In this document: positions 40,230-44,390 of the stretch, piece by piece
Numbering within the stretch: the stretch's first letter is position 1
Layout: every line of letters starts with the position of its first letter
Assembly (NCBI GenBank): GCA_017610205.1
Contig: JAFCCL010000007.1
Location: 1-64,000, forward strand
Direction of reading: 5' to 3'
Source of the DNA: Candidatus Iainarchaeum sp.
GTDB lineage: Archaea > Iainarchaeota > Iainarchaeia > Iainarchaeales > GCA-2688035
Length of the DNA: 64,000 bases
Notes under the pieces: model-generated
What the model was told of the DNA's origin: nothing
What the model saw: the letters and a program-made list of their open reading frames with translations, nothing else
The model's database searches: none
Position numbers and translations under genes: made by a program

Positions 40230-40301
40230 GCCCTGGTAGTCTATCGGTTAGGATACGGCCCTGTCGAGGCTGTGAGGCGGGTTCAACTCCCGCCCAGGGC
40301 G
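40230..40301 (+). tRNA. tRNA-Asp (GTC)
   Basis: Full cloverleaf: acceptor GCCCTGG/CCAGGGC, D arm with GGTTAGG, anticodon stem CGGCC/GGCTG (one G-T) with loop CTGTCGA giving anticodon GTC, T arm GCGGG-TTCAACT-CCCGC, discriminator G at 40301. No intron, CCA not encoded. Its 3' end is repeated 2056 bp downstream. Confidence 0.95.
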
Positions 40302-40440
40302 CTAACCCAGGGGCATTACGCCCCTTTTTTTCTTTTTACCGCAAAAACGCTTTTAGCCAAAGCTTTACTATAATATAATAGTATAACGTAACGAATAAAT
40401 GAGTAACTAAAAGGAAAGGCTTTAAATGAAAAAAGTATAA
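40290..40440 (+). repeat. tRNA-Asp 3' end plus downstream 140 bp, copy 1
   Basis: Starts inside the T stem of tRNA-Asp. The first 21 bases are identical to 42346-42366, and similarity continues with scattered changes through the terminator and the following AT-rich 110 bp (GTAACTAA, AAATGAAAAAA). Confidence 0.85.
40310..40332 (+). terminator. Terminator of tRNA-Asp
   Basis: GGGGC-ATTAC-GCCCC followed by seven T, starting eight bases after the tRNA. The second copy (42366 onward) has a weaker stem because of a G to A change. Confidence 0.8.
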
Positions 40441-40505
40441 GGATTTCTATATCATTTTTAGTAACGAAACAATTAAGTAAAAGTTAGCCTTATTAATAAA
40501 TAATC

Positions 40506-40907
40506 ATGTTTTTTTGGAAAAAGTATTCTAAGCCAGTTTTCATAGCCTTGTTTTTGCTACTTAGCTTTTTGGTCCTGTTTTTGGATGTTAAAGCAATTCC
40601 ATTTTTTGGCTTAACCTTTGAAGAGGAAATCCTCTTCCCTGCTTTCGGAGTACTGCTTTTGGGCTTTGGATTGCTGGTCTTGAACAAAAAGCTTTCAGGC
40701 AAGTCAAACCTGATTGAAGAACTGCGAGAAATGACTATTGCTTCAAAATTCTTTGGCTTGCTTTCGCTTCTCTCGCTTGTAATCATAATCATTCTGATAA
40801 TTTTCCAAGGCTTTTCCCTGTTCAGTTTTACACCCGCCATAATTACTGAGGAAAGAATTGTTGCTATCGTAATGCTTGTGTCTGCCGTGATTTTCATTCT
40901 TGTTTAG
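40506..40907 (+). CDS. Small membrane protein of unknown function
   Basis: A 133-residue protein with four predicted membrane helices and short charged loops (KLSGKSNLIEELREM between helices 2 and 3). Starts at ATG 40506; no family recognised. It lies inside the segment bracketed by tRNA-Asp repeats. Confidence 0.6.
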   Translation: MFFWKKYSKPVFIALFLLLSFLVLFLDVKAIPFFGLTFEEEILFPAFGVLLLGFGLLVLNKKLSGKSNLIEELREMTIASKFFGLLSLLSLVIIIILIIFQGFSLFSFTPAIITEERIVAIVMLVSAVIFILV

Positions 40908-41017
40908 TGTAGAAAAACTGAGGGCATTTTAATCTGTTTAGTGTTCTGCGTTTATTTTTTTGAGGTAACCAAAAGCGAAAATAAAGTATTAAATAACACA
41001 TCTGTGTTTATACAAGT

Positions 41018-42178
41018 ATGGAAGAAGTTTTTTTGTTTCTAGCCTTTGCCTTTTCACTTACTTTTGCAATTGGGCTATTGTTGGAAAAAATAAGGGTTCC
41101 TTGGATTTTTGCAGCCTTGTTAATAGGTGCTTCACTCACTTTTTATAACCCCTTTTATTCTGTTACGTCTTCTCAAACATTTAGTCTCTTAGCACAACTA
41201 GGAATGTATTTTTTGCTTTTTGTGATAGGTTTTGAGATAGACCTAACTAAGATGAAAAAAGCAGGCCGGTTTATTTTAAAAAGCACCTTCTTTATCATTT
41301 TCTTAGAAGCTCTTTTTGGAACAGCTCTTATCCATCTTGTTTTTGGATACGACTTATTCATTTCATTTATTGTAGCATTATCTTTTGCAACAGTTGGCGA
41401 AGCAATATTAATTCCTATTCTGGATGAGTTCAAAATAATAAACACAAAATTAGGGCAAAGCATTATTGGAATAGGCCTCTTAGATGACATACTAGAAATC
41501 CTCATTTTAATAGTCGTAATATTTGTAGTAGGCACTACCACTCACACACCTACAGGCATAAGTATGACAATAGCAGCACTCTTTCTTTTATTTGGCCTGA
41601 CCTTTGCATTAACAAAACTGGAAAAAGCAAGCAAAAAGTTTAACTTCTTAAACGTCGAAATTTTATTTCTTTTTATCCTTTTTGTTTTCTTTTTGTTTTT
41701 AGGAATAGGAGGATACGCACATGCCATTCCAATTGCTGCTTTTCTTGCAGGAATTGCCCTAAAAACATTTATTCCGGAAAAAAGGCTGAAAAAAGTAGAA
41801 TCAGAAGTTAAAACAATGTGCTATGGTTTTTTTGCTCCAATATTCTTCTTAGGGGTTGGCTTGTCAATGGACATCAAATATATTATTGCTTTCCCACTGC
41901 TCATACTTTTGATTGTAATTGTTTCCAATGGAGCAAAGCTCCTCGGTAGCTATATTGTTGCAAGAAAAGAACTTGGGTCAAAACAATCCATTCTGCTTGG
42001 AATAGGCTTATCGGTAAGGTTCAGTACAAGCATCGTTATCGTAAAAATTCTGTTTGAAAACAACATAATAGGAAGCAAATTATTCTCCATTATAATAGCC
42101 TCAAGCATAGTGTTTACATTCCTCGTCCCACTCTTATTCTCCAATTTGCTCGTAAGATGGAAAGTCGCCCACACCTAA
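41018..42178 (+). CDS. CPA2-family Na+(K+)/H+ antiporter
   Basis: A 386-residue protein with about 12 helices, of the KefB/NapA group: RVPWIFAALLIGASL, GMYFLLFVIGFEIDLTKM, SFATVGEAILIPIL, IGIGLLDDILEILIL with the two ion-binding Asp, and LGVGLSMDIKY. No C-terminal TrkA domain. It exchanges cations for protons. TATTAAATA lies 27 bases before the ATG, and a small dyad ACACA-TC-TGTGT follows it, a possible operator. Confidence 0.9.
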   Translation: MEEVFLFLAFAFSLTFAIGLLLEKIRVPWIFAALLIGASLTFYNPFYSVTSSQTFSLLAQLGMYFLLFVIGFEIDLTKMKKAGRFILKSTFFIIFLEALFGTALIHLVFGYDLFISFIVALSFATVGEAILIPILDEFKIINTKLGQSIIGIGLLDDILEILILIVVIFVVGTTTHTPTGISMTIAALFLLFGLTFALTKLEKASKKFNFLNVEILFLFILFVFFLFLGIGGYAHAIPIAAFLAGIALKTFIPEKRLKKVESEVKTMCYGFFAPIFFLGVGLSMDIKYIIAFPLLILLIVIVSNGAKLLGSYIVARKELGSKQSILLGIGLSVRFSTSIVIVKILFENNIIGSKLFSIIIASSIVFTFLVPLLFSNLLVRWKVAHT

Positions 42179-42345
42179 ACCCAGGCAGCAAATCCATTCC
42201 ATGCCAAAATAAAAACAAGGCAAAGGCCTGTTTTAGCTTACTTAAAAAAAAAACGATGATTTAATTAACTTCTTGCACTACACTATTTCTACAGAAAATT
42301 CGCCAAATTAATTGGTTTGGGGCACTTGATTTTAAGGAATGCGTT
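42179..42345. other. Intergenic stretch before second tRNA-end copy
   Basis: About 170 bp downstream of the antiporter gene with no gene seen. Together with the repeat and hairpin up to 42701 it forms a 520-bp gene-free stretch. Confidence 0.4.
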
Positions 42346-42495
42346 CCGCCCAGGGCGCTAACCCAGAGGCATTACGCCCCCTTTTTTCTTTTTACCGCAA
42401 AATGCTTTTAGCCAAAGCTTTTACTGGAATATAATAATATAATGGTAAACATTTATGGGTAACTAATAGGAAAAGCTGTAAATGAAAAAAAGGTA
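42346..42495 (+). repeat. tRNA-Asp 3' end plus downstream sequence, copy 2
   Basis: Begins with the last 12 bases of tRNA-Asp (T-stem end and acceptor 3' strand with discriminator) and follows copy 1 for about 150 bp with small substitutions and one-base indels. The upstream half of the tRNA is absent, so this is not a tRNA gene. Confidence 0.85.
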
Positions 42496-42496
42496 A

Positions 42497-42578
42497 GTAT
42501 TTAGTTGGATCTATTTTCAAGGCTCAGAAATACGTTAAAACGGCCAAAATTGAAAAATAGCACTCAGTAACTAAATAC
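42497..42578. ncRNA. 82-nt nested hairpin, candidate structured RNA or DNA cruciform
   Basis: GTATTTAGTT (42497-42506) pairs perfectly with AACTAAATAC (42569-42578). Inside it CTATTTTCAA (42511-42520) pairs with TTGAAAAATAG (42550-42560) with one bulged A, and GGC/GCC pairs further in. It begins right where the tRNA-end repeat stops. Could be an RNA, or a recombination or replication structure. Confidence 0.4.
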
Positions 42579-42701
42579 GTACAAAAAAAAGCATAAGCAG
42601 TTCTACACCGCCGCACTGTTCAAAACAATAAAAAAAAGGCAAACCAAAAAATATAATAACTAAAAAAGCAATATTATAACCAGAAAAAAGAGGTTCAAAG
42701 A

Positions 42702-43676
42702 ATGTCATTAAAACTAAACCTTACAGTTCCAAACAAGGCAATCCACGCACTCATAGCAGTCATCATTGTTTCTGCCTTGGTTACAGGAGCTGTTGCTTAT
42801 GCTAACAGTGGGGATGTGCTAAATCTTGCTCCGCCAACAACAATTCCCAACCCAGGACACTCTTCCACACAGATAATGATTAACCTTGGGGTAGCAGTCG
42901 CAGGTGACCCATGCACAGGTGATATCACATTACAGCAGGCTTTGGAAGACGGGTGTTTTAAGATATCAGAACCCTCTATTCCTGCCTGTGCCGACAACGA
43001 AATTCTCAAATTCAATGCCACTAGTGGAGCGTGGGAATGCAACATGCCTGTCACAGTACCGTTTATTCCATCCTGTGCTGGTGATGAAATCCTCAAGTTT
43101 GATGCCACTGCTGGAGATTGGGTATGCAGCACAGATGAAAGCCTAGGGCTGGTTTCGTGTGCTAACGAAGACTATTTGAGATTTGATACCATTGCAGGGG
43201 ATTGGGTTTGCGACAGCGGAGGCAGCCCATGCATTGCAAACCCTGCCTGTGCTGCCACCACCTGTGTTGGTGACACTTGTACTGATTCATGTGGCAACGT
43301 GTATAATGGCCTTTCCAGCAGCGGGTCTTGCTGCGTTGACACCAGCTGGACACCTGCCACTTCAACTTTTTGTTCAGGTACAAACTTTACCCAGACAAGC
43401 AACTGTGGCAGGACTAGGGTTGCTGTTGGAACTAAATCATGTTGTACTACTTATACCGATTCCTTCAATTGTGCTTTTGGTAATTATGGAGAGGTCACTT
43501 GCCCACCTGGTTATTATGTGAACAGTTACAGTTGTGCTCAAACAAGTTATCATTATCCTCCAGCTGTTTGTAATATTTGGAGCTCGGATTGGTTTAACCG
43601 TAATGCGGGGTGTAGTTGTTTGATGAGTTCGGGAACTGGTACGTGTCGTGTTTCAGTAGAATGCTGCCAAAGCTAA
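42702..43676 (+). CDS. Cys-rich surface protein with internal repeats
   Basis: A 324-residue protein with an N-terminal membrane helix (signal anchor near 15-33), then about 28 Cys. Three repeats of about 35 residues share C-A-x-x-E-I-L-K-F-x-A-T-x-G-x-W-x-C (starts near 92, 123 and 150). The C-terminal half is Cys/Ser/Thr-rich with CC pairs. Likely disulfide-stabilised and exported, possibly attached to the cell surface. No family recognised. Exported thiol-oxidation systems at 36.5 and 44.4 kb could serve it. Confidence 0.65.
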   Translation: MSLKLNLTVPNKAIHALIAVIIVSALVTGAVAYANSGDVLNLAPPTTIPNPGHSSTQIMINLGVAVAGDPCTGDITLQQALEDGCFKISEPSIPACADNEILKFNATSGAWECNMPVTVPFIPSCAGDEILKFDATAGDWVCSTDESLGLVSCANEDYLRFDTIAGDWVCDSGGSPCIANPACAATTCVGDTCTDSCGNVYNGLSSSGSCCVDTSWTPATSTFCSGTNFTQTSNCGRTRVAVGTKSCCTTYTDSFNCAFGNYGEVTCPPGYYVNSYSCAQTSYHYPPAVCNIWSSDWFNRNAGCSCLMSSGTGTCRVSVECCQS

Positions 43677-43696
43677 GAGGAAAAAAAAACGAAAAA

Positions 43697-43861
43697 ATGG
43701 ATAAAAAGGGAAAAAATCCAGGCGCTATTACAAACCCAGAGTATGTTTTGAGCATAATTCAGGGCTACTTTGTAGGCGATGCTTCGCTTGAAGACAGATT
43801 GACAAAGCTTCAGTGGGTTTTCAGAGCTTGCAGAACAATGCTCTTTAGGAGACCCTATTAG
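43697..43861 (+). CDS. Small hypothetical protein
   Basis: A 54-residue frame just after the surface protein, with NPEYVLSIIQGYFVGDASLEDRLTKLQWVFRACRTM. It looks like a folded helical peptide and not random sequence, but there is no clear RBS. Unknown function. Confidence 0.4.
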   Translation: MDKKGKNPGAITNPEYVLSIIQGYFVGDASLEDRLTKLQWVFRACRTMLFRRPY

Positions 43862-43876
43862 AATATTAAAACGAAT

Positions 43877-43993
43877 GGAGCCCTAACCTGTGAGGCAGAT
43901 GATGTTGGGAGTGCAGAAGACACTCCCACAAGCAGTATAATTAGACACTTGGGAGTGTGAAATTTTGATGCAACAGGGTTAGGCTTTGGCTCC
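43877..43993. ncRNA. Candidate structured RNA with alternative helices
   Basis: GGAGCC (43877-43882) pairs with GGCTCC (43988-43993), and CTAACCTGT (43883-43891) with ACAGGGTTAG (43973-43982, one bulge), closing a 117-nt domain. Inside, GGGAGTG (43907-43913) pairs with CACTCCC (43921-43927); a second GGGAGTG at 43951-43957 could compete for the same CACTCCC. No gene occupies 43862-44165. Orientation unknown; no known class recognised. Confidence 0.5.
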
Positions 43994-44165
43994 GTGAATA
44001 TTTAAACAAATGGAAAGGTGGTTTCCTGTAAACAAATTATTCTGTTAACCAAAGCACTAAAAATGGTTATGGTCTTAAATGAATGATTATTCCTTGAAAG
44101 AAAAGCGAAGGAAAATAACTTGAAGGCAAAAAAACAACAAAAAAAGGTTTTAAAGTACGGTTAAG

Positions 44166-44390
44166 GTGATTGTTTACACATCCCCAACATGCACTTACTG
44201 CTATGTTGTGAAAATCTTTTTAAAGAAAAACAAAATAGAGTTTGAAGAGATTGATATCTCAGAAGATAAGGAAAGCGGAAAACGCTTGGAGAAAAAAACA
44301 GGTGTTGAAACTGTTCCTGTAACCTTTGTCGGAGAAAAGTTTGTTATAGGATATAACAAGAAAAAACTAAAGGAACTTTTGGGGCTGTAA
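44166..44390 (+). CDS. Glutaredoxin-like protein
   Basis: A 74-residue protein starting at GTG 44166, with CTYC (C9, C12) in a glutaredoxin fold (VYTSPTCTYCYVVKIFL, cis-Pro in ETVPVTFVG, then GYNKKKLKELL). Cytoplasmic thiol-disulfide exchange. It is three bases ahead of a thioredoxin-DsbD fusion gene and may donate electrons to it. Confidence 0.87.
   Translation: MIVYTSPTCTYCYVVKIFLKKNKIEFEEIDISEDKESGKRLEKKTGVETVPVTFVGEKFVIGYNKKKLKELLGL

Follow-up and report, generated by a model that had tools for sequence, protein, structure and literature searches.

Probable site-specific integration of two tandem integrase-less cassettes at a tRNA-Asp 3' end in an Iainarchaeum genome

Results

A direct repeat of the tRNA-Asp 3' end

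The window analyzed here is a 64,000-nt stretch of contig C13 from a 1.37-Mb draft genome (G000) of Candidatus Iainarchaeum sp.; five congeners were compared, and all genomes are drafts. The locus of interest (Table 1) begins with a tRNA-Asp(GTC) gene called by both ARAGORN and Rfam. Downstream lie genes for a membrane protein with no Pfam or NCBIfam match and a CPA2 antiporter (PF00999 at 1.1e-35; TIGR00932 at 2.6e-29, under that model's cut-off), followed by an adhesin-like gene, whose product belongs to no Pfam or NCBIfam family, and a glutaredoxin-like gene.

The first-pass annotation had noticed that the tRNA-Asp 3' end, with some 150 bp beginning in the T stem, recurs at 42346, and that the DNA in between holds only a membrane protein and an antiporter, with no integrase. 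Both observations were confirmed. The direct repeat (40290-40446 and 42346-42502) opens within the T stem, is 157 nt long with a spacing of 2056 and has 80% ungapped identity; BLAST within the window's own genome aligns the copies at 86% over 145 nt (E=1.5e-42). ORF, Pfam and NCBIfam analyses recovered the same two genes between the repeats. No integrase was found by Pfam or NCBIfam among the ORFs of 40304-44162, and a PF00589 search of the genome gave no match on contig C13.

The 14-bp sequence CCGCCCAGGGCGCT, at the start of each repeat, has exactly two matches in the window at up to two mismatches, against 0.06 expected from shuffles. Alignment with relatives indicates that the att core is really 14-15 bp and that the remaining ~140 bp of the repeat are a common insert end.

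Table 1. Coordinates of features at the tRNA-Asp locus and of hairpin units elsewhere
Feature	Position	Strand	Evidence
tRNA-Asp(GTC) gene, putative insertion target	40230-40302	+	ARAGORN; Rfam RF00005, 57.6 bits
Putative att core copy 1, CCGCCCAGGGCGCT: T-stem 3' strand, acceptor 3' strand and 1 nt	40290-40303	+	repeat and core search; boundary set by G004
R1, putative conserved insert end: hairpin GGGGC-ATTAC-GCCCC, T-run, 60-bp motif (40351-40413)	40304-40446	+	repeat; BLAST
133-aa membrane protein, putative cargo of insert A	40506-40907	+	accompanies antiporter in G003 and G005
386-aa CPA2 cation/proton antiporter, putative cargo of insert A	41018-42178	+	PF00999; TIGR00932
Inverted repeat closing insert A, immediately ahead of core 2	42319-42347	+	sequence; folds
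Putative att core copy 2, distal tRNA-Asp 3' end	42346-42359	+	repeat and core search; borders glutaredoxin directly in G004
R2, putative conserved end of insert B (84% identity with R1)	42360-42502	+	repeat; BLAST; not at this place in G004
324-aa Cys-rich adhesin-like protein, putative cargo of insert B	42702-43676	+	no match in G004
Glutaredoxin-like gene, chromosomal right neighbor of site	44166-44390	+	also in G004 and G005
Gene-free hairpin units	L110:8453-9170, L148, L168, L172, L178, L226		covarying stems; conserved TTGARCCCAAGCRAA loop

The same site in related genomes

The closest comparison is with a sister genome, G004 (about 89% DNA identity). Its alignment to the window covers tRNA-Asp, R1 and the genes for the membrane protein and the antiporter, breaks off after position 42359, where the core ends, and resumes at 44163. 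Insert A in G004 is bounded by a 15-bp tRNA core, and the glutaredoxin-like gene comes immediately after the distal core. Since this core runs straight into glutaredoxin with neither a second repeat flank nor an adhesin-like gene (for which we found no counterpart in G004), the window appears to contain two tandem inserts and not one, A with the antiporter and B with the Cys-rich adhesin-like gene. The single integration event originally proposed is therefore retained as integration and revised in number, the second repeat copy being the opening of insert B (42360 to ~44162), which is absent in G004. The inverted repeat at the end of insert A is intact in G004 (GGGCAC...GTGCCC) and partly decayed in G000.

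Insert A keeps both att ends and has no integration or transfer genes. No core was found at the right end of insert B, so that B is not bounded on both sides, a point against the integration reading; this core was either lost from G000 or never there. In G004, B may not yet have joined A, or it may have been excised between two cores.

An empty tRNA-Asp site, which had been proposed as a check, was sought in the other relatives and found in antiporter-free form in G005 and G003. Glutaredoxin lies directly behind tRNA-Asp in G005 and other genes do in G003, and in both the antiporter is located elsewhere in the genome. The G005 site is not pristine: it carries a small 3'-end duplication scar, which counts against the integration reading. 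G002 has tRNA-Asp and the R segment (~130-bp flank; 87% identity over tRNA plus R) followed by a different Cys-rich gene. The site is thus occupied by A and B in G000, by A only in G004, by other cargo in G002 and by none in G003 and G005. Homology to the G003 antiporter module starts at 40443, where R1 ends; consequently, R reads as the insert end and the two genes as its cargo. R is outside the homology to the antiporter modules of both G003 and G005.

The G005 tRNA-Asp gene itself (L045, G005:C36, 280-391, - strand) has an insertion of ~37 nt in the T arm followed by a second 3'-end copy, and its altered 5' acceptor pairs with this second copy and not with the first (A6-U67). Either an intron in the T arm or a scar left by integration could account for this insertion.

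Antiporter identities to G004, G003 and G005 (93/79/78%) are like those of neighboring core genes (92/81/80, 92/85/77 and 88/77/77). This similar divergence, and the fact that G003 and G005 have the gene at other places, make a foreign origin of the antiporter unlikely; these comparisons suggest a gene that is old in the genus and was later relocated. Outside the genus, its distribution is patchy across DPANN.

Divergence of the repeats and a possible local duplication

The earlier annotation took the divergence of the repeats as a sign of an old event. The divergence is real (84% identity between R1 and R2), but the age argument is weak, because R1 is no more diverged from R2 than from its counterpart in G004 (83%). 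The same figures look as if R had been copied or converted within one genome, and could be explained by a segmental duplication in which a 157-bp piece starting in the tRNA T stem was copied downstream independently of any integrase and ordinary rearrangement brought in the antiporter. Such a duplication would also fit the lack of a nearby integrase and of a third core. Furthermore, R1 and R2 have common states that are missing from the R1 of G004, which implies conversion or local duplication and which we count against integration as the best explanation. However, the distal core in G004 has no R flank and ends exactly at the tRNA 3' end, R occurs with other cargo in G002, and cognate 3'-end repeats are found at unrelated tRNAs as well (see below). 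We therefore regard segmental duplication as improbable.

The R flank and its 60-bp motif

R contains a hairpin plus T-run that resembles a terminator behind the tRNA, and at sites away from tRNAs in G004 and G001 its 60-bp motif precedes promoter-like sequences. This raises the question of whether R is a conserved regulatory region (a tRNA terminator plus promoter/operator) instead of an insert end, the locus then being some other kind of recombination hot spot. We consider this quite unlikely, given that the tRNA-Asp genes of G003 and G005 lack R entirely, and that in three genomes R accompanies tRNA-Asp inserts, whose cargoes are of three different kinds altogether. The motif is confined to the genus, none of 69 further genomes in the order having it. 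Its presence off tRNAs on G004:C84, beside an integrase and a RelE-like locus, counts against the integration reading.

At this G004:C84 locus (L051:4207-6739) the 60-bp motif occurs in two copies ahead of small winged-helix-like ORFs, with a tyrosine integrase adjoining; behind one of these ORFs lies a RelE-like frame that contains an in-frame TAG. A decayed copy of the integrase, with stops, is present at G000:C1:76032-77142. The tRNA-Asp core is absent from G004:C84, from the decayed integrase on G000:C1 and from the motif sites on G004:C86 and G001:C127. Since there is no tRNA-Asp core beside the motif on G004:C84, we did not assign its integrase to the tRNA-Asp site.

Integrases linked to tRNA genes

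It had also been suggested that elements with an integrase be looked for at the same tRNA. Tyrosine integrase genes indeed start ~80 bp behind tRNA-Asp in G054, G056 and G058, which belong to two other families of the order; within the genus, no integrase was found at tRNA-Asp and no integrase relic was seen there. Elsewhere in G000, an integrase gene (PF00589) lies behind tRNA-Arg(GCG), and the 14-bp core CCCGGCGGGGGCAT, which begins at the same place of the tRNA as the Asp core (the T-stem 3' strand), occurs again 4.2 kb downstream. A decayed integrase remnant is found behind a core at tRNA-Ser (C3:205766).

The leaders of tRNA-linked integrases (L110:4229-4300, L111:4100-4170, and L117-L119 behind the tRNA) contain a candidate stem in which the GAGGAG ribosome-binding site pairs with a CCTCC-type stretch; the sequence of the stem varies between elements and its complementarity is kept. 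At G004:C11:904-2637, a single 721-aa frame contains a XerA-like recombinase domain in split form, and a RadA-like protein on G005:C47 (L046:8018-10252) carries an insertion; both interruptions look like inteins.

Recurrence at other tRNA genes

Within the genus, inserts at tRNA-Arg, Leu, Ser, Ala, Gly and Glu are likewise bounded by tRNA 3'-end repeats of 14-24 bp. They comprise HicBA and RelBE/ParE-like cassettes, an integrase element and gene-free hairpin units of ~75 bp. Searches of the stretches around the 41-42 tRNAs of G000, leaving out matches on neighboring tRNA genes (C14, C20, C16:6054), detected downstream cognate 3'-end repeats in 5 of 41 tRNAs, namely Asp, Arg, Ser (C3:205766), Leu (C10:103626) and Ala (C16:89587), whereas non-cognate ends gave an expectation of 0.3-0.5. 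A match of 13 bp behind tRNA-Ser C17:97669 was discounted because of its position inside an ORF. The corresponding count for G004 and G002 together is 6 of 72 tRNAs versus 0.17 expected.

Behind tRNA-Leu(GAG) of G004 there are two cassettes of ~590 bp, each bounded by the tRNA 3' end and with start and end sequences in common; one carries HicBA and the other a ParE/RelE-like toxin (PF05016, E=0.0017, under the curated cut-off). A related RelBE-like cassette is found behind tRNA-Leu C10 in G000. G000 and G004 alike have a HicBA cassette between cores at tRNA-Arg, and in G000 extra ~80-bp hairpin units stand exactly at the cores. Such units are gene-free, 74-83 bp long, and consist of two hairpins between duplicated tRNA 3' ends; their stems covary (ACCCAT/ATGGGT, TGCCAT/ATGGCA, CACTAT/ATAGTG, GCATAT/ATATGC), the loop is conserved, and no Rfam family matched them.

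A diverged second copy of tRNA-Ala is located ~350 bp downstream of the first (L148, G000:C16), with two tandem 95-bp hairpin units in between. Away from tRNAs (L166, L170, L174, L184) there is a related dispersed hairpin repeat (CATTGAGCCCAAGCGAAATG plus CACCAGCCGGGCGTGACGGCT), for which a control with the pattern read backwards gave no matches.

Discussion

The first-pass annotation saw in this locus the footprint of integration at a tRNA gene. Three findings favor integration at the tRNA 3' end, namely the antiporter-free sites in G005 and G003, the G004 boundary that falls exactly at the core and the integrases behind tRNA-Asp in three other genomes of the order; the extent of the core, the number of inserts, the foreign nature of the antiporter and the age argument all needed correction. 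In our judgment, the tRNA-Asp 3' end is likely a site-specific integration site with the core CCGCCCAGGGCGCT, holding two tandem integrase-less cassettes that accumulated by CIME-like accretion.

Cassette A would consist of the core, R1, the membrane protein, the antiporter and the end hairpin, and cassette B of the core, R2 and the adhesin-like gene. Probably a tyrosine integrase like those whose genes lie behind tRNAs in this order joins the core of a circular cassette to the tRNA core, the putative recombination sequence at the tRNA-Asp 3' end being CCGCCCAGGGCGC. Each insertion would rebuild the tRNA and push the older 3' end downstream as the distal copy, and repeated insertion at one core would produce tandem arrays. 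As A and B are without an integrase, the enzyme must have acted in trans or been lost by decay. We infer the mobility of the cassettes itself, along with their circular intermediates, the identity of the integrase and mobilization in trans.

Loss by decay would make the inserts remnants (CIMEs) of larger integrase elements, with the integrase and middle deleted in place. This variant, which does not exclude integration as described above, seems to us possible and no better than tentative. Decay to CIMEs followed by accretion is a documented route in streptococci (PMC5704250), and the integrase remnant at tRNA-Ser in G000 is what such decay might leave. However, the tRNA-Leu cassettes of G004 have both ends alike and different, complete toxin-antitoxin cargo, and the related RelBE-like cassette of G000 lies behind a different tRNA-Leu.

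More speculatively, in this DPANN lineage tRNA 3' ends might be the recombination sites of an integron-like cassette system, in which single-gene, toxin-antitoxin and gene-free hairpin units (~75 bp), with one tRNA-derived core each, are shuffled in trans by tRNA-linked tyrosine integrases. We hold this to be rather unlikely. If tRNA 3' ends were general landing sites for integrase-less micro-cassettes in these small-genome archaea, they would offer a simple route for gene relocation and exchange, and would explain the scattered partial tRNAs and the toxin-antitoxin loci beside tRNA genes in this lineage.

Among the closest known systems are two of which the tRNA-Asp locus is a new example. 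In Streptococcus, ICE, IME and CIME accrete in tandem at tRNA 3' ends (PMC5704250). The inserts described here share with them integrase-less DNA, bounds made of att repeats of a gene 3' end and tandem stacking, but they measure 0.07-2 kb, carry one or two genes or none and reside in DPANN archaea; descent from ICE/IME is only a possibility at tRNA-Asp. The additive flexible genomic islands of Ca. Methylopumilus, with repeated tRNA-Lys ends (PMC10872708), similarly combine repeated tRNA 3' ends with variable gene blocks that differ between relatives, whereas here several tRNAs per genome are involved and a single cassette may consist of no more than a toxin-antitoxin pair or a hairpin.

Cryptic integrated elements of Thaumarchaeota also occupy tRNA gene 3' ends with short att sites (median 17 bp) and form arrays through site re-use (PMC6563490); unlike these, both tRNA-Asp inserts are without an integrase. 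Partial tRNAs left behind by integration (PMC9897764) are among the closest comparisons too. Tycheposons, as characterized in PMC10872708 with reference to the original paper, have a tRNA border and cargo genes in common with our inserts; they are 4-200 kb in size and have a tyrosine recombinase, in contrast to tRNA-Asp inserts of 2 kb with none. Archaeal integrons and CALINs (PMC9668308) resemble the present system in having small tandem cassettes with one recombination site each, but integrons use attC, whereas the site here is the tRNA 3' end, as judged by repeat identity, and no IntI was identified. Against the open-access literature searched, the unusual features are the very small size of the cassettes, the variety of tRNAs and the gene-free hairpin units.
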